A stretch of DNA of 64,000 bases from Spirosoma aerolatum (GTDB taxonomy: Bacteria; Bacteroidota; Bacteroidia; Cytophagales; Spirosomataceae). A program made the translations under genes and the position numbers. The notes under the pieces were generated by a model, which was not told the origin of the DNA, did no database searches, and saw only the letters and a list, made by a program, of their open reading frames with translations. Positions 7,470 through 52,100 of this stretch are shown here, in pieces. Where the stretch lies: NCBI RefSeq assembly GCF_002056795.1, contig NZ_CP020104.1, forward strand, positions 4,287,501 through 4,351,500, written 5' to 3'. Position 1 is the stretch's first letter; every line of letters begins with the position of its first letter.

Positions 7470-7491
7470 TTTTGCATTAACCTTTTTCCGC

Positions 7492-37980: not shown

Positions 37981-38023
37981 GAGTTGGTGCGTACATAATC
38001 AGACTGCTCCAGCAGCCAATCAG

Positions 38024-38031
38024 CAAAGATA
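38024..38031 (-). promoter_or_regulatory. Probable -7 box of the AddB-like gene
   Basis: TATCTTTG on the minus strand matches TAnnTTTG, about 44 nt before the start codon. No clear -33 element. Confidence 0.3.
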
Positions 38032-38357
38032 ACCCACCAACGACCGATTTCCTGCCCGAAAGGCCGACAATTTGCCCAATGCACAACGCAAAATTTATAA
38101 GCGATTGGCATCCAGACGCTCAATAACTCTTAACTATCGATGCGATTGGAAGTCGAAAGTGTAACACGCCTGCAATTTTGTTTCTTGGTAGTTGAGTACC
38201 ATTCAGGTAGGGATGAGACACGCCACCTTATATTTTTTCCCGTTTTTACGTTACTATTTAGATTTATATGAGCCCACTAGGTAATTACGTGACTAAAATC
38301 AGCCGAATGCATTCACATAGTGTTACTTACTAACCAAAATCAATAAGTATAATTTAC
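38032..38357. other. Intergenic region without a recognised gene
   Basis: About 325 nt between the AddB-like gene and the small membrane ORF. It becomes AT-rich from about 38220 onwards, as a promoter region would. No ORF, repeat or RNA gene was recognised. Confidence 0.5.
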
Positions 38358-38393
38358 ATGGTCAATTCTTTATGTTACCATATCGCCGTAACC

Positions 38394-38513
38394 ATGAATC
38401 GCACCAAATCCTTTGACCCCGTTCTTGTTCTTACCTGGCTGGTTGCTATCTTTTTTTCACTGCTATGCCATTACTGTATCCTGCGGCTGTTAATTGGTTG
38501 GCTTAAGGCCTAA
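38394..38513 (+). CDS. Putative 39-residue single-span membrane peptide
   Basis: Reads MNRTKSFDPVLVLTWLVAIF and continues with FSLLCHYCILRLLIGWLKA. It has a charged N-terminus, one long hydrophobic helix and a Lys near the end. Its stop TAA (38511-38513) abuts the miaE stop on the other strand. An in-frame ATG at 38358 would add 12 residues. An AT-rich region fits a promoter upstream. No family known, and too short for standard gene callers. Confidence 0.4.
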   Translation: MNRTKSFDPVLVLTWLVAIFFSLLCHYCILRLLIGWLKA

Positions 38514-39110
38514 TCAGTGCATCCGATCACCCCGTACGTCTAGGTTGGCCATGATGTCAGCTTCGACAGCCAGAAATTCTTTCCAGCGCTGGCGAACCCG
38601 TTCAGCAGGCAGGTAGGTTTCGGCCAGGTCGATAAAATTACGGTAGTGTCCTGCCTCCGAAATCATTAGTTCACGATAGAATTTCTGTAGCCCTTCATCG
38701 GCAATATGTTCGGACAGGAGTTTGAATCGTTCACAGCTCCGGGCTTCGATGAGCGCATTGATCAACAGATTATCCATCAACTGCTCCTTCTGATCGCCAA
38801 TGGGTCGGCGAAGTCGGCTGCGAAGTTGATTGACGTACTCATCTTTACGTTGACGGCCAAGTGGAATGTTCCGTTTACGAAGTTCTTTCAGCACACGCTG
38901 AAAATGCCCCCACTCTTCTGCCACCACGGGCGTCAGGGTTTCGACCAGTTCTGTTTTATCTGAATACTGAACAATCAACGAGATACACGAGGATGCGGCT
39001 TTCTGTTCACAGTAAGCATGATCAATCAGGATATCGCCAATATTCATTTCGGCGATGTTGACCCAACGCGGATCGGTTGGTAATTCAAGCCCTAAAGTCG
39101 TCAGCGACAT
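38514..39110 (-). CDS. miaE: tRNA-(ms2io6A)-hydroxylase
   Basis: 198 aa non-haem di-iron enzyme that hydroxylates the isopentenyl group of ms2i6A37 in tRNA. The ferritin-like ligands are visible: Glu in DHAYCEQKAA, Glu-x-x-His in VAEEWGHFQRV, Glu in IEARSCERF and Glu-x-x-His in SEAGHYRNF. Length is normal. miaA and miaB are not in the window. Confidence 0.94.
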   Translation of the reverse strand: MSLTTLGLELPTDPRWVNIAEMNIGDILIDHAYCEQKAASSCISLIVQYSDKTELVETLTPVVAEEWGHFQRVLKELRKRNIPLGRQRKDEYVNQLRSRLRRPIGDQKEQLMDNLLINALIEARSCERFKLLSEHIADEGLQKFYRELMISEAGHYRNFIDLAETYLPAERVRQRWKEFLAVEADIMANLDVRGDRMH

Positions 39111-39142
39111 TCGTTCGTACGATTGGTTGATTGTTTATTCAA

Positions 39143-39150
39143 CAAAGGTA
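39143..39150 (-). promoter_or_regulatory. Probable -7 box of miaE
   Basis: TACCTTTG on the minus strand, 33 nt before the miaE start codon, matches TAnnTTTG. Confidence 0.4.
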
Positions 39151-39167
39151 ATAACTATCGCCTGACG

Positions 39168-40526
39168 CTAAAAAAACAAGGGTTTACCCTGATAAAAGTC
39201 CAGTACTTTCTGCTTAAAAAAACTATCGTATTTAGCCTGCAACAATTCTGACTGCGCCAGGACCAATTGGCTCCGAGTAACGCCAAAAGCAATCGCATCA
39301 ATACTTCCCAGTTCCAAGGTTCGTTCAGCATATCGGTACGCTTCACGCACTGCTTCATACTGAGTCAATAATGCCTGATATTTCCGTGCTGCCGCTTTAT
39401 AATCCAGAAACGCATTGACTATTTTCCCCCTGAGTTCCCGGTCAACCTGCTGGTAGGCCAACTTAGAGGCCGTCATATCGAGCCTGGCTATCTGGTCAAT
39501 GTTTCGCAGCATTAGCCGATTGAAAATAGGAAGGTATAACGACAAACCCACTTGTTGATTCAGATTGGTACGTAATTGCTGGTTGAAGCGCTCCGGTTTA
39601 TAATTCGACGTTCGGGTAGCAATCTGTGCCGTAAATGTCAGCGCAGGCAGGTAAATAGCCCGCTCCGACTGCCACAAATAATAGGCTGTCTGCACTTTCG
39701 AATCAGCCGCTTTCAGATCGGGCAACGTAGCGGTTGATGTATTTAATAATTCGTCAAGGGTAAGTTTCGTCATCTGCCAGTTATCGGGAACACGAACAGT
39801 ATCGACCGTAATGGCTTCGTTGAGCGGCATACCCATTACATTCATTAATGTGAAAGTTGCCTTCTCAATATTGGTTTCCGCATAAACAGCCATCAGCTCT
39901 TCAGCAGCAACCAGTGATTGTATAGTAAGCAGGTCGCCCTTATTCAATATGCCTTTACTAAACGAAGCCTGTATTTTTTGCTGCTGCCTGTTCAGATAAC
40001 CTGACCGTATTTTTGAGCTTTTTAATTGTTCATGAGCTAACAAAATTTGCAGATAAGCATAAGTAACGTCTATAATAACGTCATTAACACTTACCTCATA
40101 TCCATAATTGGCTGTAGTTACTTCCTGATTGCGAAGTTTGAGTCGATTCACATTCGAAAGCCCATTAAATAAATCAAGGTTTAGGTTAATTGAGGCCTGA
40201 TTACCGAAATTGAACTGATTTGACAATAAATTAGTCGATGGGTCAATAATAAACCCCCAGTTTCCGGCTGAGCGGACCCGAGCATCGAGCGTTGGCAAAA
40301 ACTGGTTTTTTGCCTGTTGTCGTTGCAAAAGGCTTCTGTTCTGGAGCAAACTTGCCTGTTGAATCTGCGGATTATTTTTTTGCGCAAATGACAAACATTC
40401 CGTTAATGTCCAGCTTTTCTGTGCCAAAGCTTCATAACTGCATACATAGATGAATAACCAATAGAAGCCGTATCTGATCGATGTAATTAATAAGGTCCTG
40501 ATGCGCATATACATACCGCCATTCAT
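39168..40526 (-). CDS. TolC-family outer membrane channel, last gene of the DUF4956 operon
   Basis: About 446-452 aa with a signal peptide (FYWLFIYVCSYEALAQ). Two related halves of long alpha-helices and short beta-strands typify the outer membrane efflux protein family: LTECLSFAQKNNPQIQQA opens the first, and the region around LDELLNTSTATLPDLKAADS opens the second. It starts 32 nt after the DUF4956 gene and completes an adaptor-membrane protein-channel operon. It probably spans the outer membrane and periplasm. Confidence 0.92.
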   Translation of the reverse strand: MNGGMYMRIRTLLITSIRYGFYWLFIYVCSYEALAQKSWTLTECLSFAQKNNPQIQQASLLQNRSLLQRQQAKNQFLPTLDARVRSAGNWGFIIDPSTNLLSNQFNFGNQASINLNLDLFNGLSNVNRLKLRNQEVTTANYGYEVSVNDVIIDVTYAYLQILLAHEQLKSSKIRSGYLNRQQQKIQASFSKGILNKGDLLTIQSLVAAEELMAVYAETNIEKATFTLMNVMGMPLNEAITVDTVRVPDNWQMTKLTLDELLNTSTATLPDLKAADSKVQTAYYLWQSERAIYLPALTFTAQIATRTSNYKPERFNQQLRTNLNQQVGLSLYLPIFNRLMLRNIDQIARLDMTASKLAYQQVDRELRGKIVNAFLDYKAAARKYQALLTQYEAVREAYRYAERTLELGSIDAIAFGVTRSQLVLAQSELLQAKYDSFFKQKVLDFYQGKPLFF

Positions 40527-40558
40527 GTAAATTAAGATGTGGAATCAGAAAGAACTAG

Positions 40559-41230
40559 CTATTCATCTTCGGACAATAGATTAACCTCCATAACCCCCTC
40601 AATAGCTTTCAATGCATAGACCAGGCTGTCGCTGTCCTCACTGTTTTTCATGCGTATGGTATAGGAAAACCGAATAAATGAGTCATTGCCCTTTGTAGAC
40701 AGTTTCGTACTGATCAATTCGTATTTTTTGCAAAAAGAGCTTAGAACAGTCCGGTGCTGACTTCTATCGCTCTGTGTGGCACTCCTGATTACATTTAGGG
40801 TAAAATATCGCTGTTTTGTACTGGCCAGCACTTTAGCAGTTCCAATCGTTATTAATCCGATAAGAAAACAACCGGCTAACGCTACAGTATATAATCCTTC
40901 ACCACAGGATAAGCCAATAGCCAACGCAAAAAAGAGAAACATAAAATCCTGTGCGCCTTTCATAGCCGCCCGAAACTGGATAATTGACAGAATGCCAACC
41001 ATACCAAATGCCTGAGCAAGATTATCGCCAATTACCATCATGATAAAGGCAGTAATCATGGAGAGCATCACAATTGAACGAATCAGATTGATTGAATAGC
41101 CTACTCCCCGAAACGTAAGAATATAAAAACAGGAAATAATGCCTCCACAAAACGTAGCCAGCAACGTATTGACAATAACTTCTCGAATGGTGATGGAAAA
41201 ATTAAAAACCTGCTGAAGTTCCTGATGCAT
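40559..41230 (-). CDS. DUF4956 membrane protein (MgtC-like layout, ACT-like tail)
   Basis: About 223 aa. Four to five membrane spans in the first ~130 residues. The core AFGMVGILSIIQFRAAMKGA, then MFLFFALAIGLSCGEG, matches the DUF4956 family and recalls MgtC/SapB. Residues ~145-223 form a soluble alpha/beta tail (RYFTLNVIRSATQSD; SLVYALKAIEGVMEVNLL) like an ACT domain. The ATG at 41230 is chosen. A TTG at 41260 would add ten hydrophobic residues. DUF4956 usually sits with CotH and VTC-type polyphosphate polymerase genes. Here it sits between a HlyD-type adaptor and a TolC-type channel. Confidence 0.85.
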   Translation of the reverse strand: MHQELQQVFNFSITIREVIVNTLLATFCGGIISCFYILTFRGVGYSINLIRSIVMLSMITAFIMMVIGDNLAQAFGMVGILSIIQFRAAMKGAQDFMFLFFALAIGLSCGEGLYTVALAGCFLIGLITIGTAKVLASTKQRYFTLNVIRSATQSDRSQHRTVLSSFCKKYELISTKLSTKGNDSFIRFSYTIRMKNSEDSDSLVYALKAIEGVMEVNLLSEDE

Positions 41231-41287
41231 GAGCAAGAAAGGTAAAACGAAGTATGGCAAGAAAAGGGCAGTAATGAACGAACTGCT

Positions 41288-42367
41288 TTAGTGAATAAGA
41301 AATAGCTTACCCACTCGGATAATATGCTCTTTTATGGAAATAGGTTGAGATTGAATAGTGGCTTTAACCAGCATTCCCGGCACAAGTGGTACGTTTTTTT
41401 CGGCAATCAGTGCAGTCACAAAAAAAGCCTGACGTCCATCGACAAGCTGAATAGTATTATCAATGCTACTGATTTTCCCCAGAACCGTTTGCGTTGTGCC
41501 TGTAATGTCAACCGCTACTTCCTGATCTATCTGTACGTACTCGCGCTCCAGATAATTGACGGGCAATACCACTATAAATCCCGAATTATCGGCTACCGAC
41601 ACAAGTACTTCTTCAGTAGGATTTAGGGAGGCTTTCTTGAACAATATCGTTCCCGACACTGGTGACAGAAGCGTTAAGTCTTTCAGGCCATTTTTTATCT
41701 GCTGTATCTGTTGCTGTAAAGCGCCGATACGCCGTTGGGTTACCTGAATTTCCTCAGGCTTGCTACCTGTAATAGCCGATTTGTAATCCGCTTCAGTCAT
41801 GTTTACTGTCAATTCACGAATACGCAGTTTGTTAAGCGCTGTTTCGTATTCCTGAGTAGACGTAAGAGAATCTTTGTACAGAGCTTCAGTCCGATTTGTC
41901 AGTTTACGCTGAGCCTCAAGCTCCTCTTTCGCTAACGCCATCTGGCCAGCTATTTTCTCTACATCAGCCAGCTTGTGCCCTGAATTGTGCAGCAAAAGTT
42001 CGGCCTCCTGCACAGCCAGATCGCCTTGCAGTTGCATGAGCCGCTCCTGATCCTGATTCGAATACAGGCTAGCCACGGTATCGCCCTTTTGAATAGTGGG
42101 TTTATCATATAAACTCGGACTCAGTTGAAAATTAGCCTGATAACCTCGTTGAAAAACTGAAGTGGAAAACGAACTCAACTGGCCTGTCCGGTTATCTTTT
42201 ACTGTTGAAATAAGGTTTCCGTTCTGTGCCCGGCTTAATGTCCACTCACTTGTGGGCATAACTAATCCATTCGTAGCGATCGTATAGGGCATTGTTACAA
42301 AAGCAACTTCTGCTAGAAGCAACAACATCAACACAAAACCAGTAAAAAACAGTAAATACCTTTTCAA
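41288..42367 (-). CDS. HlyD-type membrane fusion (adaptor) protein
   Basis: About 359 aa. One N-terminal membrane anchor (LLFFTGFVLMLLLLAEVAFV), a biotinyl-lipoyl half (KPTIQKGDTVASLYSN), a long coiled-coil hairpin (about 105-220, ALAKEELEAQRKLTNRTEAL), the second lipoyl half (LLSPVSGTILFKKASLNPTE) and beta-barrel domains follow the membrane-fusion-protein pattern. The start is probably TTG at 42365-42367; the next ATG would cut the anchor. First gene of the operon. No ABC, RND or MFS pump gene is adjacent. Confidence 0.9.
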   Translation of the reverse strand: MKRYLLFFTGFVLMLLLLAEVAFVTMPYTIATNGLVMPTSEWTLSRAQNGNLISTVKDNRTGQLSSFSTSVFQRGYQANFQLSPSLYDKPTIQKGDTVASLYSNQDQERLMQLQGDLAVQEAELLLHNSGHKLADVEKIAGQMALAKEELEAQRKLTNRTEALYKDSLTSTQEYETALNKLRIRELTVNMTEADYKSAITGSKPEEIQVTQRRIGALQQQIQQIKNGLKDLTLLSPVSGTILFKKASLNPTEEVLVSVADNSGFIVVLPVNYLEREYVQIDQEVAVDITGTTQTVLGKISSIDNTIQLVDGRQAFFVTALIAEKNVPLVPGMLVKATIQSQPISIKEHIIRVGKLFLIH

Positions 42368-42595
42368 GAGTCGTATGTGTGTAGATTGTTATGCAATTTC
42401 TTAATACTTATACATTAAATCACTTCTTTCGTAGGATATAATTACCATTCACTAAAAAGCGTACCTATCCCATAAAAAGATAATATTGATTTACCATGAA
42501 TCGGCTATTGATAAACTATAGACGTTTATTGCGTATATGAGCGGATGCATAACATCCTGAACTTATTTCGTGTTATTTCAATGTAAAGTTCGCGA

Positions 42596-43261
42596 ATGAA
42601 ACAACCTGTTTATTTTTTCCTGATTTTGCTTGTATCAGGGCTTTTAGCAAGCTGTAATCAGCAGCCAGCTAACAAAAAAGCGACTACCACTATCGACGTT
42701 AACCCGGCTAAACTACCCACACAACGTACCGGTGAGGCTGTTGCGACATTCGCAGGAGGATGTTTCTGGGCCGTGCAGGAAGAAATGAAATCACTTAAAG
42801 GTGTTCGTGTTGCTATGTCGGGTTACTCAGGTGGTGATCTCGATTATCCAACTTACGAACAGGTCGGTACCGATCAGACGGGACATGCCGAATCGGTACA
42901 GGTTTACTACGATCCTAAGGTGATTTCGTACGATACTCTGCTCGATGGTTTCTTTGCCGGACACGATGCCACTCAACTAAACCGGCAGGGCCCTGATATT
43001 GGCAAACATTACCGCTCAGCTATTTTCTACCGTACACCCGCTGAAAAGGCCCGAATCGAAGCAGCCATCCGTCGTGAAAACGAATCAGGCCATCATAAAG
43101 CCAAAGTGGTTACACAAGTCGTGCCATTCAAAGCGTTTTTTCCAGCCGAGGTTTATCATCAGGATTATTACGAGCATAATTCATACAATATGTATATCCA
43201 ACTCGTCTCAAAAGCCAAAGTAGAAACCTTTCGCGAACGGATGGCGAATTGGTTGAAGTGA
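42596..43261 (+). CDS. msrA: Lipoprotein peptide-methionine (S)-S-oxide reductase
   Basis: 221 aa. AGGCFWAVQEEMKSLKGV carries the catalytic Cys of MsrA (GCFW). GYSGGDLDYPTYEQVGTDQTGHAESVQVYYDP, RSAIFYRTPAEK and YHQDYYEHN are family blocks. The N-terminus is a lipoprotein signal (LLVSGLLASC), so the enzyme acts in the periplasm on oxidised methionine in exported proteins. No MsrB domain is fused, and no C-terminal resolving Cys is seen. Confidence 0.93.
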   Translation: MKQPVYFFLILLVSGLLASCNQQPANKKATTTIDVNPAKLPTQRTGEAVATFAGGCFWAVQEEMKSLKGVRVAMSGYSGGDLDYPTYEQVGTDQTGHAESVQVYYDPKVISYDTLLDGFFAGHDATQLNRQGPDIGKHYRSAIFYRTPAEKARIEAAIRRENESGHHKAKVVTQVVPFKAFFPAEVYHQDYYEHNSYNMYIQLVSKAKVETFRERMANWLK

Positions 43262-43425
43262 GCGAGGTGCCACCTAAAACGAAAACGCCACACCGCCTTT
43301 TCCAACATTCGGCCCGTCCTACGACCATTTCCCCATTCCCATAACCGTTCGGCCTAATCTGATATTGTGGGATTCGGCCGAACCTTGTAACATTGTTCTG
43401 TCTTTCACATAATTGACTGACTCCT

Positions 43426-44124
43426 ATGCCAGAATCTGATAAATCCATTGGGCGTAAAATTCTGAGTTTCTTCATCAAGGAAGATGAACAGGGCGTTGCA
43501 ACGGGCTCTGCGCCAACCACAGGACCAGCTTCGCCCCGACCACCAGCTCCCACGCCGTCGAATTCAGGGCCGGAGGCTCCAGCCCCAGCCCAAACCGGCT
43601 CTGTCGACTCAAAGTTTGCCGAGCACTTTGCTACTGTACTGGCGCAGAACAATCCGCCCGGCCCCGATTATTTTGAGTTTCGGGAAGCCTTGCGCAGTCT
43701 GTCGAACTTGGGATTACCCGAAGACAAGCAGTATCAGGCAGCCTGGGCCAGCTTTAAGGCAATGGGGGGCAGTACCGATATGACCACATTGACCAATACG
43801 GCAAATGGTTATATTGCAGCGCTCAACAAAGATCGTGATGGCTTTGGCAAAAGCGTAGAAGCGGCCCTGACTGAACGTGTCGGCGGTTTGCAGAACGAAC
43901 AGAAGCGGCTACAAGCCGAAAATGAGTCGCTGGCAAAACAGTTGATCGAGATTCAGAAGCAGATCGACGCCAACACAGCCCGGCTGACCAGTATCAGCGG
44001 AGAAATTACAGAGCAGGGAGGTAAAATAACGCAGAATAAGCAAAACTACGAAACCACCTTTGCGCACTTTGTCGATCAGATTAAAGGCGACATCGCCAAA
44101 ATGACACAGTACTTAAACCAATAG
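43426..44124 (+). CDS. Module gene 1: Pro-rich linker and coiled-coil protein, unknown function
   Basis: 232 aa, soluble. Residues ~1-25 are a short charged helix (GRKILSFFIKEDEQG), ~26-62 a Pro/Ala/Ser/Gly-rich linker, ~63-140 a compact helical domain (HFATVLAQNNPPGPDYFEFR; LGLPEDKQYQAAWASFK) and ~150-210 a coiled coil rich in Gln, Glu and Lys. No family was recognised. It is followed by an inverted repeat and three more genes of the same module on the same strand. Confidence 0.75.
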   Translation: MPESDKSIGRKILSFFIKEDEQGVATGSAPTTGPASPRPPAPTPSNSGPEAPAPAQTGSVDSKFAEHFATVLAQNNPPGPDYFEFREALRSLSNLGLPEDKQYQAAWASFKAMGGSTDMTTLTNTANGYIAALNKDRDGFGKSVEAALTERVGGLQNEQKRLQAENESLAKQLIEIQKQIDANTARLTSISGEITEQGGKITQNKQNYETTFAHFVDQIKGDIAKMTQYLNQ

Positions 44125-44203
44125 ATATGTTGTATGATATAGGATGTAGTCAATTAATACCAACACTATTACATCCTATATCACACATCTTACATCATAC
44201 ATC
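44124..44203. repeat. Inverted repeat at junction 1 of the four-gene module
   Basis: Arms about 44124-44148 and 44170-44203. The inner 14 bp (TGATATAGGATGTA and its complement) pair perfectly, the outer parts less well. The arms are made of repeated words (TACATC/GATGTA). It fills nearly the whole gap between module genes 1 and 2. Confidence 0.7.
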
Positions 44204-44208
44204 AAAAC

Positions 44209-45222
44209 ATGGCAACTCCTGATTTTTCTCAACTGAGTAGTGGTTCCGGTCCCGAAAAGAAATCGTTCTGGAACCGCCCCGAGGGTGTACTGGGCATGAT
44301 TGTACTGGCGGGAATCGCTGGTTTTGGCCTCTGGCACCTCAACGATATTCTGGAATTCCTGATTCGGGCAACCTCGAATATACTTGAATTGTCGCTATTG
44401 CTGGGTGCGCTGGGCGTACTGATCTTCCTCTTCACCAGCAAAGACGTTCGGACGGCGATCTTCTTCCTGTTCAAATCGCTAATGCGCAGCCTTACAGGTA
44501 CGGTCATTCAACTGAACCCTATCGCGATCATGAAAATCTATGTTCAGGATTTGAAAGATAAGCGCGAAAAAATGCAGGGACAGATTAATACGCTGGCCGG
44601 GCAGTTGGTAAAGCTTAACAAACGGATCAACGAAAACAATGAAGCCATCAAGCAGAAATTTGCGGAAGCGAACAAGGCGAATTCAATGACCGAAAAGCCG
44701 GGTATGCGCGAAGCGGCTCAGCTCGCTACCATTGAGGGAGCTGGCCTTCAGGAAATGAACGAGAAGCTTTTGCCGCTGCAACGCAACATGAAACAGGTGC
44801 TGGCTTTTATGGAAAAAGTGAACCAGAGCGCCGACTATATTATCAAGGAAACGGAAATTAAGGTTCGTTTGAAAGAGACCGAGTACCAGATCGTCAAAGA
44901 GAGTTCCAACGCGCTGAAAACGGCGGTCAGCATCTTCAAAGGCGATCCCGACAAGAAGTTCTATTTCGACCAGTCGATGGAGTATATCCAGGATGATATG
45001 AGCAATAAGCTGGGCGAAATGAAGCGGGCCATGGACCTGTCGATGGACTTTATCAATGGAGTCGATATTCAGAATGGTATCCTGTCCGACAAAGGTCAGG
45101 CCCTGCTGGAAGCCTACAATAAAGGAGAATTCAAGATGGTTCAGTTGGATGCCCCGCCCCAAACCATTAACCTCGGCCCCGCCCCACAAAAAGACGCTGG
45201 TTATAAGAATTTGCTGGACTAA
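44209..45222 (+). CDS. Module gene 2: membrane coiled-coil protein, unknown function
   Basis: 337 aa. Two hydrophobic segments (about 27-46 and 58-77), then a positively charged stretch. Residues ~110-165 (IYVQDLKDKREKMQGQINTL onward) and ~185-250 form long coiled coils resembling the PspA/toxic-anion-resistance style of helical membrane-stress proteins, though no family can be claimed. The C-terminal ~40 residues are Pro-rich (DAPPQTINLGPAPQKDAG). It lies between module genes 1 and 3, with an inverted repeat on each side. Confidence 0.75.
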   Translation: MATPDFSQLSSGSGPEKKSFWNRPEGVLGMIVLAGIAGFGLWHLNDILEFLIRATSNILELSLLLGALGVLIFLFTSKDVRTAIFFLFKSLMRSLTGTVIQLNPIAIMKIYVQDLKDKREKMQGQINTLAGQLVKLNKRINENNEAIKQKFAEANKANSMTEKPGMREAAQLATIEGAGLQEMNEKLLPLQRNMKQVLAFMEKVNQSADYIIKETEIKVRLKETEYQIVKESSNALKTAVSIFKGDPDKKFYFDQSMEYIQDDMSNKLGEMKRAMDLSMDFINGVDIQNGILSDKGQALLEAYNKGEFKMVQLDAPPQTINLGPAPQKDAGYKNLLD

Positions 45223-45226
45223 TTTC

Positions 45227-45316
45227 AATTTTGAATGAGTGAATGATCGAATGCCTGAATAATATTCACAGCCTCTCCCTCCATTCACTCATTCACTCAT
45301 TCAATCATTCAAAATT
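45227..45316. repeat. Inverted repeat at junction 2 of the four-gene module
   Basis: Arms 45227-45260 and 45283-45316 pair over most of 34 positions (about five mismatches). Both arms are built from the 4/8-nt words GAATGA and GAGTGA. It fills the gap between module genes 2 and 3. Confidence 0.75.
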
Positions 45317-45325
45317 AACATTCCT

Positions 45326-46378
45326 ATGCAACGATTAACCGTAGCCGGTCGGCTGCTTATTACGGCCCTTATTTTGGCCGCTATCTTTTTCGCGTTCCGT
45401 TACTTTGGTGGTAACGATGCTCTGAAGAAACTTCAGTCGAAAGACAAAGAAAAGGAGTACACAGAGTCGCAAACCATGCCACGCGCCGACGACAAGACGG
45501 CCGAGGAAGCTACCGAAGAGTCGAGTGCTTCTTCATCCGGTTCATCGGACGAAGCGAGCAGCAGCCAGCCCCAGGCGAATTTTTCGTACACGGCGCCCGA
45601 ACCCCAGAATGGCGTTCTGAAAGGTGTGGTTGAATTAGGGGCCAGTGGATTCAATTCGTTCGTTGTTCGGATTGACGATCAGAAACGCTGGAAGCTCGAA
45701 AAAGCTGAGTTTGGCAATAGCCTCGTTCTGGAAAATATGGCTACAGACAACGACGTGCGGACTGGCCTGAAAAGCTATATCGGCAAGATGCTGGACTTTG
45801 GCGTGGGTGGCCGGAATATCCATTTCGTCGTTAGCTCTGGGGCTGTGAAAGCTGAAGGCACCCAGAAAATTATCAAAGTGCTGAAATCGCTGAACTACTT
45901 TGTCAATACAGTAACGCCCGAACAGGAAGGTAGTCTGGCCCTACGAGCAGTGCTGCCAGACTCCTACGAAGGCAACTCGTTTGTGACAGACATTGGATCG
46001 GGCAACACCAAAATTTCATGGAAAGAAGGTGGCTCTATCAAAGCTCTGGAAACCTACGGATCTAAATATTACAGTGAAGGTACCAGCGATGCTACCGTGT
46101 ATGATGCAGTAAAAGCGAAAGCAAAGCAGGTGCCTTCCGACCATCGGCAAACCTGTTTTATCATCGGTGGCGTTCCCTTCGAACTGGCCAAGTCGGTTCG
46201 GAAAGGCAAAGAGCGCTATACGGTTCTCGATGCCCCATCAGCCTATAAACTGGAAAGTGCCAAATCGAAAGCTGGGCTGAACGTCTACAAAGCTATTGCC
46301 GACGCCACTGGCTGCAACCAGTTCGTCTTCGACTGGGATGCAAACTTCACCATCGGCTATCTGTTGACACTAAAATAA
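45326..46378 (+). CDS. Module gene 3: membrane-anchored PPX/GppA-like ASKHA protein
   Basis: 350 aa. One N-terminal membrane span (about 9-27), an acidic/Ser-rich linker (about 30-90), then an ASKHA-fold domain laid out like the exopolyphosphatase/GppA family. It has a phosphate-1-like strand VVELGASGFNSFVV (about 101-114, with Glu where PPX has Asp), HFVVSSGAVKA (~166-176, like ATSALRDA), NTVTPEQEGSLAL (~194-206, like ISGEEEA), phosphate-2 TDIGSGNTKISW (221-232) and an adenosine-type FIIGG (278-282). It may sense or bind a nucleotide or polyphosphate. Topology of the domain is not certain. Confidence 0.75.
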   Translation: MQRLTVAGRLLITALILAAIFFAFRYFGGNDALKKLQSKDKEKEYTESQTMPRADDKTAEEATEESSASSSGSSDEASSSQPQANFSYTAPEPQNGVLKGVVELGASGFNSFVVRIDDQKRWKLEKAEFGNSLVLENMATDNDVRTGLKSYIGKMLDFGVGGRNIHFVVSSGAVKAEGTQKIIKVLKSLNYFVNTVTPEQEGSLALRAVLPDSYEGNSFVTDIGSGNTKISWKEGGSIKALETYGSKYYSEGTSDATVYDAVKAKAKQVPSDHRQTCFIIGGVPFELAKSVRKGKERYTVLDAPSAYKLESAKSKAGLNVYKAIADATGCNQFVFDWDANFTIGYLLTLK

Positions 46379-46462
46379 TGATTGAATGCTAGAATGACTG
46401 AATGATTGAATTGGAAATATGTCCTCTATTCAATCATTCAGTCATTCTAGCATTCAATCATT
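46377..46462. repeat. Perfect 34-bp palindrome at junction 3 of the four-gene module
   Basis: 46377-46410 pairs with 46429-46462 without a mismatch around an 18-nt loop. It begins inside the stop codon of module gene 3 and ends 8 nt before the start of module gene 4. Built from GAATG and ATTGAATG words like junction 2. No T tract follows. Confidence 0.9.
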
Positions 46463-46470
46463 TCCTTCCC

Positions 46471-46974
46471 ATGACCCTCCGTGATGTTTTTCAGGCCATT
46501 TCGGGCCAGCCTGCTTTATTGTTTATGCTTCTGATGGCCATACCGACAGGAGCTTTTTTGGTGAATTTGTGGTCGGGGGGCACGGCCGAAGAAATTATTA
46601 AGTGGAAGTATGTGTATGCTGTGCTGGTATATCTGGCCTGCATTCCAGGGGTGTTTGCCGTTACGCTGAACCTTTACCTGTTTCTGTTCGAGCGGCAGAG
46701 TGTGTGGGATATGAATTTGGCGCTTCAGGTACTTCCCATACTCACCATGATTGCCACCCTAATGCTGATCAGGCGAAAAATCCCTTTCGATTACATACCA
46801 GGCTTCGGAAAGCTGTCGGGCTTTCTGACATTGATTGCTGCGGTTATAGGAATTATGTGGTTCATCGACCGGACCCGCATTTACGCCGTTACCTACATCC
46901 CGTTTACCTACATTGTCGTTGGGTTTGTGGCCCTTCTACTTATCATTCGCTTCGCCTGGAGCCGCATTTTCTGA
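46471..46974 (+). CDS. Module gene 4: multi-span membrane protein, unknown function
   Basis: About 167 aa with four to five membrane spans (LLFMLLMAIPTGAFLV, YVYAVLVYLACIPGVFAVTL, LALQVLPILTMIATLMLI, LSGFLTLIAAVIGIMWFI, YIVVGFVALLLIIRFAW). The methionine at 46471 (MTLRDVFQ) is chosen because the longer frame from 46402 reads through the palindrome. No family was recognised. It closes the module, as a divergent/convergent boundary follows. Confidence 0.72.
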   Translation: MTLRDVFQAISGQPALLFMLLMAIPTGAFLVNLWSGGTAEEIIKWKYVYAVLVYLACIPGVFAVTLNLYLFLFERQSVWDMNLALQVLPILTMIATLMLIRRKIPFDYIPGFGKLSGFLTLIAAVIGIMWFIDRTRIYAVTYIPFTYIVVGFVALLLIIRFAWSRIF

Positions 46975-47053
46975 CATGTATCAATATACATTCAACTTAG
47001 CGCAAACCCCATCAGAGAAAGTTCGTACTTAGGCTTATAGCGTAGCTCGTCTA

Positions 47054-48031
47054 CTACTCACTGGCAATCGACAAACGGTTCGCTTCTATCTGTTTAGCGG
47101 CCCGTTCCTGTCGGTATTTCGGAAGGTTTATCAACAATACGCTCCCCAGAATCACAACCAGTCCGGCAATTTGAGTCCAGGAAATAGGCTCATTGGCAAA
47201 CAAAACACCGAGAATAACAGCAATAACCGGATTCACATAAGCATAGGTACTGACCTGCGTAGCCGGGCGCACCTGAAGCAGCCAAACGTAAGCACTATAG
47301 GCTATGATCGATCCAAACACCACCAGATACCCCAACGCCAGCCAGGCCTGACCGGACACCTGTCCCCACTGAACCCGTTCGTACTCCTGATTGAGCAGGC
47401 TGGCGGGCAAAAATACCAACCCGGCTATGATCATTTGCCAGGCTACATTGACCGTTGACCCTCCCTCCGATGGATGGTGCTTTGAATACAGCGAACCTGA
47501 CGACCAGGCTATTGAACCACCAATCAGGAGGAGCATGGATATCGTTTCAGCCTGATTAGCATTGCCGCTGAACAAATCGCCCAATTGTTCGCTGAACAGC
47601 AAAATCACTCCGATGAAACCAATCAACAACCCGGCCAGCGTGGCCTGGCTTTTGAAATTCGTTTTCCAGTTGGGCTTATCCAGCAGGACAAACCAGAGCG
47701 GAGCCGACGACACCATGATAGCAACCAGTGCACTCGGCAGGCTCTGCTCCACCCAGATCACAGCCCCATTGCCCCCGACCAGCAGCAGGACACCAACTAC
47801 TGCCGAAGTCAGCATGCTTTTTTTGTTAAACAGCGGCTCGCCTTTCAGGAATCCCCACAGCAACATCAGCATACCAGCCGCCAGGAATCGCATAGCCCCC
47901 ATCAGCATCGGCGGGAAATCCTGTATGGCCATCTGGATAAAAAAATAGGTAGATCCCCAAACAATATAAACGATAGCAAACGCACTGATAACCAGAAGTG
48001 GCGATACAGTTTTTTGGGTTGGTTGATTCAT
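47054..48031 (-). CDS. EamA-family (DMT) transporter
   Basis: 325 aa, ten membrane spans in two EamA repeats (about 12-150 and 160-305). FAIVYIVWGSTYFFIQMAIQ at the start and the second-repeat end ILGVLFANEPISWTQIAGLVVI are typical. Members export amino acids or metabolites. A LysR-type regulator is divergent 109 nt away, with a dyad between them, so the transporter is probably its target. Confidence 0.92.
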   Translation of the reverse strand: MNQPTQKTVSPLLVISAFAIVYIVWGSTYFFIQMAIQDFPPMLMGAMRFLAAGMLMLLWGFLKGEPLFNKKSMLTSAVVGVLLLVGGNGAVIWVEQSLPSALVAIMVSSAPLWFVLLDKPNWKTNFKSQATLAGLLIGFIGVILLFSEQLGDLFSGNANQAETISMLLLIGGSIAWSSGSLYSKHHPSEGGSTVNVAWQMIIAGLVFLPASLLNQEYERVQWGQVSGQAWLALGYLVVFGSIIAYSAYVWLLQVRPATQVSTYAYVNPVIAVILGVLFANEPISWTQIAGLVVILGSVLLINLPKYRQERAAKQIEANRLSIASE

Positions 48032-48071
48032 GGCTTTTCGTTTTTCAGGTGTTATTTACTGATCAAGAGGC

Positions 48072-48079
48072 CAAAGGTA
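48072..48079 (-). promoter_or_regulatory. Probable -7 box of the EamA transporter
   Basis: TACCTTTG on the minus strand, 41 nt before the EamA start, matches TAnnTTTG. The LysR dyad begins 11 nt upstream of it. Confidence 0.45.
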
Positions 48080-48085
48080 GTGCAC

Positions 48086-48130
48086 TTTGATTCATGAGTA
48101 AAGCGAATTATTTTTGTAGAAATCATGAAT
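48086..48130 (+). promoter_or_regulatory. LysR promoter with overlapping operator-like dyad
   Basis: TTTG (48086-48089), 19 nt, TATTTTTG (48109-48116): an exact match to the Bacteroidota TTTG-N19-TAnnTTTG promoter, 24 nt before the LysR start. The 8-bp inverted repeat ATTCATGA (48090-48097) and TCATGAAT (48123-48130) brackets it. The arms also lie upstream of the divergent EamA promoter, which suits both autorepression and activation of the transporter. Confidence 0.6.
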
Positions 48131-48140
48131 TCTGCTCATC

Positions 48141-49070
48141 ATGGAAATCAGGCATCTTCAGATGGTTAAAGAGGTAGCGGCCAGTGGTAACCTGACCAAA
48201 GCCGCTGATCGTCTTTTTCTTACGCAATCGGCGTTAAGCCACCAGTTGAAGGAAATAGAAGCCTATTTCCATACCCAGCTTTTTATTCGTGATAAAAAAC
48301 AAATGCTGCTCACCCAGGCAGGCGAAGTGGTGTTGCAGGCCGCTGAGAAAATCCTTCAGGAAGTAGCCGAAACCAGGGCGAAAGTTCGTTGCCTTACCGA
48401 TCCCGAATCGGGCGAAGTACGCCTGTGTACCCAATGCTATACCTCCTACCATTGGCTGGCTGGTTTTCTGCGGGAATACCAGACCATTTATCCAAAAGTG
48501 GATGTGAAGGTTGAGCTGGAAGCCCCTTTTCATGCTGCGGATCACTATTTGCTAGCCAATAAAATTGACGTAGCCATTACCGAAGGCGACGAAAACCCTA
48601 AATTTTCCTACACGCCCCTGTTTCAGGACGAGTTTGTTGCCGTTGTTGCTCCCGACCATCCCTGGGCCAGTCGTCGTTGGATTGAGATCGATGAGTTTGT
48701 CGATTACAACTACATCATGTATAACATTCCCGATGAGGAAAGCTCCAATTTTATGACGTTTTTCAAGCATCGCCGACCACCAAAAGTCTATAAGATTACG
48801 CTGACCGAAGCCATTCTGGAGATGGTAAAAGCGGGCTTGGGGGTAGCTGTTCTGCCGACCTGGGTTATAAAACCCTATATTCAATCGGGGCAATTGACCA
48901 CTGTTCGGGTTACGGAGCAGCGGATTCTTCGTACCTGGTACGCGGCTACCCTGAAAACCAAACAGCTTCCGCCCTACACAACAGCTTTCATCGAACAACT
49001 GGCGTCGTACATGAGCGAGCGCGAAGGCTATGCATGTACGGCAGCAATCACGTCTGGTTGCTTTGCGTAA
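48141..49070 (+). CDS. LysR-type transcriptional regulator (MetR-like N-terminus)
   Basis: 309 aa. The N-terminal winged helix-turn-helix is in the first 62 residues (GNLTKAADRLFLTQSALSHQ, followed by LKEIEAYF, resembling MetR). The C-terminal periplasmic-binding-like effector domain runs to ~295. It probably controls the divergent EamA transporter. The ligand is unknown, and an amino acid or its derivative would fit the transporter family. Confidence 0.92.
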   Translation: MEIRHLQMVKEVAASGNLTKAADRLFLTQSALSHQLKEIEAYFHTQLFIRDKKQMLLTQAGEVVLQAAEKILQEVAETRAKVRCLTDPESGEVRLCTQCYTSYHWLAGFLREYQTIYPKVDVKVELEAPFHAADHYLLANKIDVAITEGDENPKFSYTPLFQDEFVAVVAPDHPWASRRWIEIDEFVDYNYIMYNIPDEESSNFMTFFKHRRPPKVYKITLTEAILEMVKAGLGVAVLPTWVIKPYIQSGQLTTVRVTEQRILRTWYAATLKTKQLPPYTTAFIEQLASYMSEREGYACTAAITSGCFA

Positions 49071-49085
49071 TCCATTACAATAGCC

Positions 49086-49784
49086 ATGTTTCTTCGTCTG
49101 CTTACACAGGCACTTAGTTGCCTTGCTCTGTTTTTATCAATAACCTGTACACCTTCTTTACAGGAGCCAGCCTCGCCAGATTATACCTATTTTCCACTCG
49201 AAACGGGCCGATTTTGGATCTACGACGTACAGGAAAAGCAATTTACATCAGCAGACTCGCCAGTTCAGCGAACCTATCAGCTAAAAGAACTCGTGGGGCA
49301 GGCGTATACGGATGTAACAGGGCAACAGGCTTACCGACTATTGCGCTACAAACGAAGCGACGATACGCAACCCTGGCAACCCGATTCGGTATGGTCGGTC
49401 CGGTTAGTCAATAACCTGGCCATACGCTCGGAAAACGGCAGGGATTTTGTTAGCTTGTTGTTTCCAATCAGCGATCAATCAAGCTGGAATGGCAACCAAC
49501 TTTCTGGTGCGGGCGCGGATCTATATGTAGTCCGCAACGTCGGACAGCCTTACCGCGTACTGGCAAAACAATTCGACAATACCGTAACAGTCATTGCTCA
49601 GGATGACTCTACGCTGGTATCGCAGGACAAACGCATGGACGTGTATGCCCGAGGGATTGGATTAGTGTATAAGGAACGTACCCATGTGCAGTTTTGTACA
49701 GCCTCGCCAACCTGCATTGGGCATCAACTGATTGACTATGGTACTCAACAGATTTACCGTATCCGCACATACGGCACTGACTAA
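49086..49784 (+). CDS. Lipoprotein-like exported protein of unknown function
   Basis: 232 aa. The signal sequence (ALSCLALFLSITC) suggests a lipoprotein with Cys21. The mature part, opening DYTYFPLETGRFWIYDVQE, with a Tyr/Trp-rich beta structure and GIGLVYKERTHVQFC near the end, is common in Bacteroidota but has no named function. It starts 15 nt after the LysR stop. The downstream subtilase gene starts inside its last 47 nt. Confidence 0.75.
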   Translation: MFLRLLTQALSCLALFLSITCTPSLQEPASPDYTYFPLETGRFWIYDVQEKQFTSADSPVQRTYQLKELVGQAYTDVTGQQAYRLLRYKRSDDTQPWQPDSVWSVRLVNNLAIRSENGRDFVSLLFPISDQSSWNGNQLSGAGADLYVVRNVGQPYRVLAKQFDNTVTVIAQDDSTLVSQDKRMDVYARGIGLVYKERTHVQFCTASPTCIGHQLIDYGTQQIYRIRTYGTD

Positions 49785-51414
49785 CTTAGCTGGTTTACTC
49801 ATGCTCATCATTCTGAGTCATGTTGATACGTTTGGCCAGAATCGAAAATACCTGGTCCTACTGCGCGACAAGGCCAATTCGCCTTACAGTGTGAACCAAC
49901 CCGACAAGTTCCTTTCGCAACGGTCGATCCTCCGTCGACAGCGGCAAAATATAACTATTCTGGAGCGCGATTTGCCCGTTAACCCTGCCTACGTCAAACA
50001 ACTTCAGCAGGCCGGTGCCAAAATCTGGTTTTCGTCGCGCTGGCTCAATGCCGTTCTGGTCGAAGCCAACGAGGCCACAATAGGTACAATTCAGCAATTG
50101 CCGATTGTGAAAGGGCTGGAGTTTGGTCGTTCGCTGGCGAATGCGCGGGTTAGTGTTACCGACTCAGTAGTACAATTCGTTAACGAAGTCAGTGCAATCA
50201 ACAAATTTGGGGATGTACAACCACTCAACTATGGTTCATCCCTGGCGCAGATCACTCAGATTGGGGTCGATAAAATGCACCAGCAGGGCTATCATGGCGA
50301 AGGTATGCTGATAGCTGTACTCGATGCCGGATTTCAGAATGCCGACAAAGTCAGTTTTTTAAAGCCTGTTTTCGACGACAAACGCATACTGGCCACCTAC
50401 GATTTTGTCAAAAAAGAAGCCAGTGTGTATGAAGATGACTCGCACGGTTTATCCTGCCTGTCGGCCATTGCCGCCACAGCCGATTATCAGCTTTATGGCA
50501 CAGCTTACAAAGCCTCCTTTATTCTGCTTCGTACTGAGGATGCCGCTAGCGAACGCCAGATTGAAGAGGCCAACTGGTTGTTCGGGGCCGAATATGCGGA
50601 TAGCGCTGGCGTCGATGTGATTAGCTCTTCGCTGGGTTATACACAATTCGACGATGCATCGACCAGCTATACGTACCAGAATATGGACGGGAAAACGGCT
50701 CTTTCAAGTCGGGCAGCCGAAATCGCTACCCAAACGGGTATGGTAGTGGTGGTAGCGGCTGGTAACGAGGGGAATAGTAGCTGGCATTACCTGTCTGCTC
50801 CCTCCGATGCGGCTTCTGTACTGGCAATTGGTGCGGTTGGTACAACTGGGCAACGGGCATCATTCAGTTCATTCGGTCCTTCGGCCGATGGTCGGGTGAA
50901 GCCCGATCTGGATGCCCAGGGACTCGGAACAATTGTGGGCTATCCAACCAGTTCAATTGCTTCTGGCAACGGTACGTCGTTTGCAACACCGCTAATTGCT
51001 GGTCTGGTGGCCGGTTTCTGGCAGGCCCACCCACGCCTGACGGCCGCTCAGGTCACCGATGCCCTCCGTCGATCCGGTAGTCAGTATGGTACACCCAATG
51101 ACCAATTAGGCTATGGAATTCCCAATTTTGAGCGGGCGTCGTCCCTTTCAGACGCTTACAAAGAGTTGTCAGTGTTCCCAAACCCCTTCAGCGACGAGCA
51201 ATCGTTGGGCGTTCAGTGGGGCGAAATCCAGGAAAATACACCGCTCGATGCCACATTGACCAACATGGCCGGACGGATAGTTTGGCAAAATCGGTATGTT
51301 TCACCAGGGCTGGCGGCTTTCCGTCTTCCCAATTTAAGCCTGTCGGCTGGTGTTTATGTGATGACCCTCATAGCTGGCGATAAAAAACGTACCTTAAAGC
51401 TGGTAAAACAGTAG
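49738..51414 (+). CDS. Secreted subtilase (S8) with type IX secretion sorting tail
   Basis: About 558 aa. Signal segment (LAGLLMLIILSHVDTFGQ), an inhibitor-like prodomain (~25-150), then the catalytic domain with Asp in IAVLDAGFQN, His in DDSHGLSC and Ser in GNGTSFATPLIAGLVAG. The last ~80 residues are a type A T9SS sorting domain: LSVFPNPFSDEQSL, then VYVMTLIAGDKKRTLKLVKQ. It is secreted across the outer membrane by PorSS and may be attached to the surface. The ATG at 49738 is preferred over the TTG at 49732. Confidence 0.93.
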   Translation: MVLNRFTVSAHTALTNLAGLLMLIILSHVDTFGQNRKYLVLLRDKANSPYSVNQPDKFLSQRSILRRQRQNITILERDLPVNPAYVKQLQQAGAKIWFSSRWLNAVLVEANEATIGTIQQLPIVKGLEFGRSLANARVSVTDSVVQFVNEVSAINKFGDVQPLNYGSSLAQITQIGVDKMHQQGYHGEGMLIAVLDAGFQNADKVSFLKPVFDDKRILATYDFVKKEASVYEDDSHGLSCLSAIAATADYQLYGTAYKASFILLRTEDAASERQIEEANWLFGAEYADSAGVDVISSSLGYTQFDDASTSYTYQNMDGKTALSSRAAEIATQTGMVVVVAAGNEGNSSWHYLSAPSDAASVLAIGAVGTTGQRASFSSFGPSADGRVKPDLDAQGLGTIVGYPTSSIASGNGTSFATPLIAGLVAGFWQAHPRLTAAQVTDALRRSGSQYGTPNDQLGYGIPNFERASSLSDAYKELSVFPNPFSDEQSLGVQWGEIQENTPLDATLTNMAGRIVWQNRYVSPGLAAFRLPNLSLSAGVYVMTLIAGDKKRTLKLVKQ

Positions 51415-51419
51415 TTAAG

Positions 51420-51498
51420 GTTTATGGTTTTCAGTGTACGGTAGGCTGACGAGTAAAGTGTTTACTCGTCAGCCTACCGTACACTGAAAACCATAAAC
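51420..51498. repeat. Perfect 38-bp palindrome between the subtilase and macrodomain genes
   Basis: 51420-51457 pairs without a mismatch with 51461-51498 around the 3-nt loop GTG. It starts 5 nt after the subtilase stop and ends 13 nt before the macrodomain start. The right arm shares GTCAGCCTACCGTA and following bases with the lgt/yidD palindrome near 26995. It has no T tract and no ORF. Confidence 0.95.
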
Positions 51499-51511
51499 TG
51501 CATACAAAGCT

Positions 51512-52027
51512 ATGCCAATTCTCCGTGTCATTCAGGGCGATATAACCAAGCAGGCAGTCGATGCCATTGTAAACGCAGCCAACACCAGTTTACTGGGTGG
51601 TGGTGGCGTAGATGGGGCTATCCATCGGGCGGCAGGCCCCGAACTTGTTTTCGAATGCCGGATGTTACACGGCTGCAAAACGGGTGATGCCAAACTAACC
51701 AGAGGGTATCGTTTACCTGCTCCCTACATCATTCATGCTGTAGGGCCAGTCTGGCGAGGAGGAGCGCATGGCGAAGCCGATTTGCTGGCAAGCTGTTACC
51801 GACGATCGCTGGAAATCGCCAATGCGGAAAACCTGAATAGTATCGCTTTCCCGAATATCAGTACAGGTATTTACGGATATCCCAAGGACAAAGCCGTTGA
51901 AGTTGCCATCACTGCGGTCAGGAATTACCTGAAAAAGCAAACATCCATTCAGGAGGTTATCTTTGTCTGCTTCGATATAGATAATCTAACGCTTTATGAG
52001 CAAAGGCTATATTCGCAAAATGAATAG
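51512..52027 (+). CDS. Macrodomain protein, O-acetyl-ADP-ribose deacetylase-like
   Basis: 171 aa, one macrodomain of the MacroD/YmdB type. [20 protein letters not shown] carries the Asn and the Asp-Gly-Ala-Ile-His of the active site, and [14 protein letters not shown] binds the diphosphate. These enzymes hydrolyse O-acetyl-ADP-ribose and mono-ADP-ribose on proteins. Palindromes flank it on both sides (51420-51498 and 52027-52100). Confidence 0.94.
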
Positions 52028-52100
52028 AACACGGATCATTATGATGATTATGATTTCTTAAGATCTGTGTAAATCATAATCATCATAATGATCCGTGTTC
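52027..52100. repeat. Perfect 30-bp palindrome after the macrodomain gene
   Basis: 52027-52056 pairs without a mismatch with 52071-52100 around a 14-nt loop. It starts at the last base of the macrodomain stop codon and ends 22 nt before the methyltransferase start. Arms are built of ATGAT/ATCAT words. Confidence 0.95.

Follow-up and report, generated by a model that had tools for sequence, protein, structure and literature searches.

The window analysed here is a 64,000-nucleotide stretch of the genome of Spirosoma aerolatum (contig NZ_CP020104.1, positions 4,287,501 to 4,351,500 of the forward strand), and its subject is a run of four same-strand open reading frames (ORFs), g1, g2, g3 and g4. 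A preliminary description of positions 43426..46974 had reported four such genes for a proline-rich coiled-coil protein, a membrane coiled-coil protein, a membrane-anchored protein of PPX/GppA (ASKHA) layout and a multi-span membrane protein, and all four are present as ORFs, g4 with a corrected start.

43426..44124, + strand: g1, 232 amino acids, with a Pro-rich N-terminal half and a C-terminal coiled coil
44209..45222, + strand: g2, 337 amino acids, with two hydrophobic spans and long helices after them
45326..46378, + strand: g3, 350 amino acids, with an N-terminal anchor, a low-complexity Ser/Glu linker and a predicted PPX/GppA-fold (ASKHA) domain at about residues 94-350
46471..46974, + strand: g4, 167 amino acids, a polytopic membrane protein

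With the corrected start, the gaps between the genes are 84 bp (g1-g2), 103 bp (g2-g3) and 92 bp (g3-g4). The start originally listed for g4, 46402, sits within a perfect 35-bp inverted repeat (46377-46462), and since the first 69 bases lie in this hairpin and the relatives of g4 align only from the ATG at 46471 (MTLRDVF...), the start is placed at 46471. When the four proteins were scanned against Pfam and NCBIfam, none passed a cut-off. The earlier description had named a family for the third gene only; g2 can now be named, on mixed evidence, as a probable PspA/IM30 relative. The g3 protein is 98% identical to that of Spirosoma sp. 48-14 and 97% identical to that of S. panaciterrae, and both g2 and g3 give one match each across their own genome (one contig, 7.96 Mb).

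The arrangement g1-g2-g3(-g4) recurs beyond chance, and the module is real. Among 28 related loci found with g3, the genes g1, g2 and g3 are consecutive in 18, and g4 comes next in 11 of these 18 (some of the loci stop shortly past g3). In one locus of Emticicia (L017) the order is g1-g2-SBP/OmpA-permease-ATPase-g3, that is, genes for a solute-binding protein (SBP) with an OmpA domain and for the permease and ATPase of an ATP-binding cassette (ABC) system stand between g2 and g3. In nine of the 28 loci g3 lies apart from g1-g2, and each of these nine genomes has an adjacent g1-g2 pair elsewhere, followed in three of them (Hymenobacter) by ABC/OmpA genes. The preliminary description had taken the four genes for a module that separation in relatives would argue against; the module itself is borne out, but contiguity holds only in part, and a single fixed four-gene operon is rejected, g3 being separate in 9/28 loci and g4 being found, within a sample of the order, only in one family, the window's own.

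Among the sampled genomes as wholes, the genes are strictly linked. A second set, 194 genomes of the order, was searched for strong matches (for g1 at E <= 1e-6 and for g4 at E <= 0.001), which were counted in 29 genomes for g3, 34 for g2, 43 for g1 and 12 for g4. Weak matches had first been removed, three of 32 for g3 (G112, G123 and G148, none stronger than E 7.6e-6) and two of 36 for g2 (G097 and G166). The hub of the module is g1: it is present in 29/29 g3 genomes and in 34/34 g2 genomes, and in the sole g1 genome outside these two sets, G097, the weak g2 match adjoins g1. Counted by genus (93 in total), g3 and g2 occur in 13 genera each, none of them outside the 18 that have g1 (Fisher p 3e-12 for either gene), and the association of g2 with g3 gives a Fisher p of 4e-7, kinship between genera being uncorrected in these tests. 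Within the 29 g3 genomes, g2 adjoins g3 in 16 with a gap of up to about 231 bp, lies 0.8-0.95 kb from it in G110, and is found elsewhere in the genome in four (G069, G082, G096 and G136). In three of the 29 (L143, L146 and L147) g1 adjoins g3, and elsewhere in the genome g4 stands behind a g2-like gene; in four (L053, L054, L060 and L074) the run is VWA-PP2C-kinase-g3-g1 and the genomes give no g2 match; and in one (G166, 62% complete) g1 is elsewhere in the genome. Several genomes weigh against so close a bond: all three genes are apart in G136, g1 and g2 are on separate contigs in G128, second g2 copies without an adjoining g1 occur in G060, G191, G588 and G591, and G289 and G505 (one genus) carry two g3 copies each with neither g1 nor g2. 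In the phylum as a whole g3 is rare, being found in 8/395 sampled genomes (E <= 1e-20).

According to the predicted structure, g3 has the two-lobed PPX/GppA (ASKHA) fold. The motifs on which the PPX/GppA layout had been proposed, SSGAVKA (residues 170-176), PEQEGSLAL (198-206) and DIGSGNTK (222-229), are all located in the protein and are in place in the model. The features of g3 that bear on its chemistry and position are as follows.

45926..45928, + strand: Glu201 of g3, at the position of the catalytic Glu of PPX (DrPPX E114, EcPPX E121, AaPPX E119)
46010..46012, + strand: Lys229 of g3, which replaces a conserved Glu (EcPPX E150, AaPPX E148)
45326..45406, + strand: N-terminal anchor of g3, residues 1-27, common to the SBP-OmpA proteins of the ABC variant

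In the Pfam scan the window protein stays below the PF02541 cut-off (16.4 vs 27 bits), and a lipoprotein-like g3 relative in L070 clears it (29.3 vs 27 bits). Because two ordinary PPX/GppA proteins above the Pfam cut-off are encoded elsewhere in the same genome, g3 is not the housekeeping enzyme. The position of Glu201 is Glu in 53/53 rows of alignment A4 and in 54/55 sequences of a second set (one has Lys); that of Lys229 is Lys in 53/53 rows and in 54/54 aligned residues of the second set, lipoproteins included. The Asp of the first phosphate motif (IDxGS/TN) is also replaced, by Glu103 in g3, in 53/53 and 55/55 sequences, respectively. Glu201, Asp222, Gly224-Lys229 and Gly281-Gly282, which line the cleft, are among the most conserved residues of the protein. 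The Glu that Lys229 replaces, E150 of EcPPX, has a metal role. In PMC5417653 this residue is given as a Glu of the family (Table 1) and termed critical for ATP binding. Lys229 makes ordinary PPX chemistry less likely; g3 may hydrolyse a ligand or may only bind one.

The domain of g3 is probably extracytoplasmic, as its N-termini suggest. The window protein starts with a short basic stretch and a single span, and the linker after them is acidic and rich in Ser. Instead of this anchor, the Hymenobacter relatives (L020 and L025) have a signal-peptide-like N-terminus with VAQ/QAQ at its end, and in two genomes (L070 and L071) the relatives have lipobox-like N-termini, both kinds having been read by eye. 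Since these export signals put g3 very likely outside the cytoplasm, a cytoplasmic enzyme or sensor role for (p)ppGpp or nucleotides is unlikely. Cys277 and Cys330 are both present or both absent in 50/53 rows, a pattern that tracks two clades, and the candidate disulphide between them would fit a periplasmic site, but it is not used as proof. The relatives in L020 and L025 also carry about 60-75 extra residues between the signal-peptide-like start and the g3 domain. L070 and L071 each hold two lipoprotein-like copies about 5 kb apart (7386-8342 and 13116-14024; 6535-7476 and 12204-13166), and their genomes give no g1 or g2 matches, so that a different use of the g3 domain is possible there.

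The anchor of g3 is shared with other proteins. One gene run of L017 encodes both g3 and the SBP-OmpA protein, and the first 27 residues of the two are almost identical. Scored against the g3 anchors of other loci, 13 SBP-OmpA N-termini reach 55-105 and four more 54-67 (17/17 at 54-105), as compared with at most 43 for 60 control ORFs with an N-terminal hydrophobic span, where both sets come from the fetched loci, the controls are uncurated and partly homologous to one another, and so are the SBP sequences, mostly of the Hymenobacter type. The SBP-OmpA protein of L050, removed at first by a hydrophobicity filter, was scored together with three later sequences. A homologous anchor carrying different heads is the simplest reading of these N-termini, and because the same anchor bears an SBP/OmpA head in relatives, the periplasmic heads look interchangeable. 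In L017 and L041 the g3 head and the SBP-OmpA head are present together.

The g2 protein is probably a transmembrane-anchored relative of the PspA/IM30 (ESCRT-III) proteins, and two of its segments are relevant here.

44278..44436, + strand: transmembrane hairpin of g2, residues 24-76 (model helices H24-42, H44-56 and H58-76)
44518..45060, + strand: putative PspA-like helices of g2, residues 104-284 (domain about 103-284), beginning at the invariant Pro104

Two hydrophobic spans with a mean Kyte-Doolittle (KD) value above 1.4 are found in 22/23 aligned g2 sequences, the remaining one reaching 1.34. Of the relatives of the Emticicia g2, 34/120 listed carry PF04012 in a precomputed Pfam column, and the names given to some of them are PspA/IM30 family or phage shock protein A. 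When ten relatives were scanned, four of which had been picked as already labelled PF04012, nine matched this profile below its cut-off (E 0.018 to 3e-6), the match always starting at profile position 21-23 and the best one reaching 27.4 bits against a cut-off of 33.9. VIPP1/PspA is among the structural matches of the g2 model, as are BAR domains. In the structural comparison, residues 103-241 of the model lie on residues 24-157 of a VIPP1 chain (7o3w) with a root-mean-square deviation of 1.8 over 134, and the register of this alignment is that of the PF04012 profile, within 1-2 residues.

A considerable body of evidence weighs against this kinship. Most of the listed relatives are unnamed or 'hypothetical', and some are called 'nucleic acid-binding Zn-ribbon protein'; in an unselected set only 6/23 sequences match PF04012 (E <= 0.1), and seven match DUF948; the window g2 itself has no PF04012 match at E <= 1. 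With a pLDDT of 58 the model of g2 is weak, a Foldseek search with it gave no match at E <0.001, with arfaptin at the top, and BAR-domain or axonemal coiled coils equal or beat VIPP1 against it (Z to 12.1 vs 10.3). An hhalign comparison of g2 with five Bacteroidota PspA sequences gave a probability of 11.6% over 46 columns in a different register (a control with reversed PspA was weaker still), and a g2 profile search of the PDB returned coiled coils and no PspA. In addition, phmmer of g2 against the PDB found Ktr subunits alone (E 0.15-0.16). Weak coiled-coil matches of g1 and g2, such as that of g1 to Mod(r) (E 7.5e-5), were discounted as coiled-coil noise.

In the alignment of g1, read by eye, the N-terminal segment (GRKILSFFIKED) is conserved and looks amphipathic; a linker rich in Pro, a middle part that is helical and conserved, and the coiled coil come after it, and the protein is predicted to be cytoplasmic and membrane-peripheral. 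As for g4, its 12 copies among the 194 genomes lie directly behind g3 in nine cases and behind a g2-like gene in three, and none lies elsewhere; the copy of G184 is partial and that of G159 has an internal stop. Limited in this sample to the window's own family, g4 is proposed to be a lineage-specific membrane partner.

Each gap of the module contains a strong hairpin.

44126..44192, + strand: hairpin in the g1-g2 gap, z -5.0
45221..45322, + strand: hairpin in the g2-g3 gap, z -7.0
46377..46462, + strand: perfect 35-bp hairpin in the g3-g4 gap, -56.3 kcal/mol, z -14.6

In 16 loci (the window, L002-L011, L024 and L026-L029), 36/42 gaps fold at z below -3 relative to shuffles. The position of these hairpins is kept more than their sequence, as the g1-g2 and g3-g4 gaps of most relatives (L002 and L003 excepted) are about as identical to those of the window as shuffles are, and the g2-g3 gaps mostly only somewhat more so. 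In 12 Spirosoma loci, z falls below -3 in 17/22 gaps of module genes, 9/26 gaps of other co-directional ORFs, 5/7 convergent gaps and 0/7 divergent ones, a distribution as expected for 3'-end or terminator-like elements. The hairpins are frequently made of 7-8-base near-repeats and belong to no Rfam family, and scans for sigma-70 promoters and terminators gave shuffle level only. The strong hairpins behind g1, g2 and g3 may give the genes separate transcripts, so that the four are no more than candidates for co-transcription; this weighs against the explanation proposed below. Other perfect long inverted repeats, apparently of the same kind, stand behind genes at 51420-51498 (38-bp arms) and 52027-52100 (30-bp arms). 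Upstream of g1, at 42596-43261, lies a gene for PMSR, peptide methionine sulfoxide reductase (Pfam E 3.7e-55), as in several other Spirosoma loci. In the S. telluris record (L027, 7923-9046) g3, msrA and a serine-protease-like gene are each broken across frames, which suggests sequencing errors in that record.

Taken as a whole, the module is best explained, tentatively and with a likelihood a little short of even, as a trans-envelope membrane-integrity module with a g1-g2 scaffold and a periplasmic g3 head. First of all, g2 would be held in the inner membrane by its transmembrane hairpin, and its helical domain of PspA/ESCRT-III type would face the cytoplasm and may assemble there into a scaffold. 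The obligatory partner in this assembly would be g1, with its amphipathic N-terminal segment and coiled coil. The PPX/GppA-fold domain of g3, on its single-span anchor, would form the periplasmic head; its extracytoplasmic location points to a phosphate-rich ligand in the periplasm, which it may bind, and perhaps slowly hydrolyse, relaying the ligand state to g1-g2 via the anchor. Some relatives have on this anchor an OmpA head that binds solute and peptidoglycan and works with an ABC importer, as PMC11237479 describes for PspA/TM-Snf7 operons, and g4 would be a membrane partner specific to one lineage. The analysis shows the module, the predicted fold of g3, the retained Glu201, Lys229 and the shared anchor; it speaks strongly for a g3 outside the cytoplasm and makes a PspA/ESCRT-III-like g2 probable. 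Assembly, ligand, signalling direction and stress role are inferred, and the sensing of stress, nucleotides or polyphosphate that the preliminary description suggested stays a conjecture. It tells against the explanation that ligand binding by g3 and a response of g1-g2 enter it as proposals.

The strongest competitor, though itself rather unlikely, is that g3 is an active ecto-phosphohydrolase for polyphosphate, nucleotides or similar compounds, supplying phosphate in the manner of an NTPDase while g1, g2 and g4 organise or protect it at the membrane. The presence of Lys at the EcPPX E150 equivalent and of Glu103 for the first-motif Asp, both in 53/53 rows, argues against it, as does the inspection by eye of the ORFs at 38000-52000, in which none was recognised as a gene for phosphate transport. 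It is also unlikely, on our estimate, that g2 is an unrelated membrane coiled coil (BAR-like or generic) whose PspA likeness is coiled-coil noise and that the module is an accessory of TerY-P/Ter-type signalling. The higher scores of BAR domains, the weak hhalign result and the 6/23 unselected PF04012 matches would fit an unrelated coiled coil, and the VWA-PP2C-kinase genes before g3-g1 in four genomes without a g2 match would fit such an accessory; the constant PF04012 start in 9/10 relatives, in agreement with the structural alignment within 1-2 residues, speaks against noise, and the TerY-P context is found in a minority (4/29 g3 genomes). Finally, it is improbable that g3, as a pseudo-enzyme with no ligand chemistry, takes the place of the OmpA head as a structural plug or adaptor in the periplasm and contacts peptidoglycan or an outer-membrane partner: the charge reversal at Lys229 and the anchor common to g3 and OmpA-domain proteins would suit it, but the strong conservation of the cleft residues counts against a pure plug, which needs no such residues.

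A more far-reaching reading, which we regard as doubtful, is that of outside-in control: a receptor of PPX/GppA fold outside the cytoplasm, its chemistry retuned by the invariant Lys, would sense periplasmic polyphosphate or another phosphate-rich ligand and control a membrane-anchored ESCRT-III-like scaffold, the anchor being a standard plug for different heads (a phosphatase fold or a transporter-linked OmpA fold) and TerY-P-like kinases an alternative cytoplasmic output. The module itself would link bacterial ESCRT-III-like scaffolds to periplasmic chemistry. With it, a domain of PPX/GppA fold very likely lies in a compartment in which the substrates usual for this fold are not to be expected, and it suggests a general rule of one anchor with exchangeable periplasmic heads. 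Canonical PspA (PF04012) was found in 0/13 genomes of the genus, the window's own included, which speaks for the membrane-integrity explanation and makes the module a direct candidate for guarding the inner membrane there; G004, a genome of the TerY-P type with no g2 match, does carry canonical PspA.

Compared with known systems, g2 may resemble PspA/IM30/Vipp1 in the length and register of its helical hairpin and in the helix before a conserved (D/N)P step. PspA/IM30 is a peripheral protein not known to have transmembrane spans. Unlike it, g2 is anchored by a transmembrane hairpin and stays below the Pfam cut-off, and its C-terminal helices are not confidently modelled. With PPX/GppA phosphatases, g3 has in common the predicted fold, the catalytic Glu and the D-x-G-x-G loop, but it differs from them in being probably extracytoplasmic, as a membrane-anchored protein or lipoprotein, in having Lys at the conserved Glu and Glu for the first-motif Asp, and in its sub-threshold PF02541 score. 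The E-NTPDases (CD39, Legionella NTPDase1), which act outside the cytoplasm, share the superfamily fold with g3. The TerY-P triad (VWA, PP2C and kinase) precedes g3-g1 directly in L053, where its genes were recognised by Pfam, and in L054, L060 and L074, where they were recognised by similarity; no VWA, PP2C or kinase genes were recognised by eye beside the window genes. The triad has been described in PMC11090510 as a hypothesised metal-sensing phosphorylation switch, and these four loci, as TerY-P-like ones, match its gene layout.

A literature search that covered few subscription journals found no description of g1, g3 or g4, and the nearest account is PMC11237479. There, operons of PspA or TM-Snf7 with an ABC ATPase, a permease and a PBPB-OmpA protein are described and tied to an AAA+ ATPase, and for one gene neighbourhood of Bacteroidetes a third coiled-coil gene (CBH24266.1), which may be g1, is mentioned next to those for PspA and Snf7. 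These operons resemble the g1-g2-SBP/OmpA-permease-ATPase loci of Emticicia, Hymenobacter and others, whereas g1-g2 in the window has no neighbouring ABC genes: no ABC ATPase, permease or SBP-OmpA gene is adjacent there, although such genes are found beside g2 in relatives, and the Emticicia SBP-OmpA protein, used as query against the whole genome, gave OmpA-domain matches only (other SBP types were not searched). The module is unusual, and in kind it would belong with the known PspA/Snf7-type envelope systems. Beyond what the available portion of PMC11237479 relates lie g3, the obligatory g1, g4 and the anchor common to g3 and the OmpA protein; within the literature searched, what is new is the partner of PPX/GppA fold with its probable place outside the cytoplasm, g1 as the hub, g4, and an anchor that looks exchangeable.

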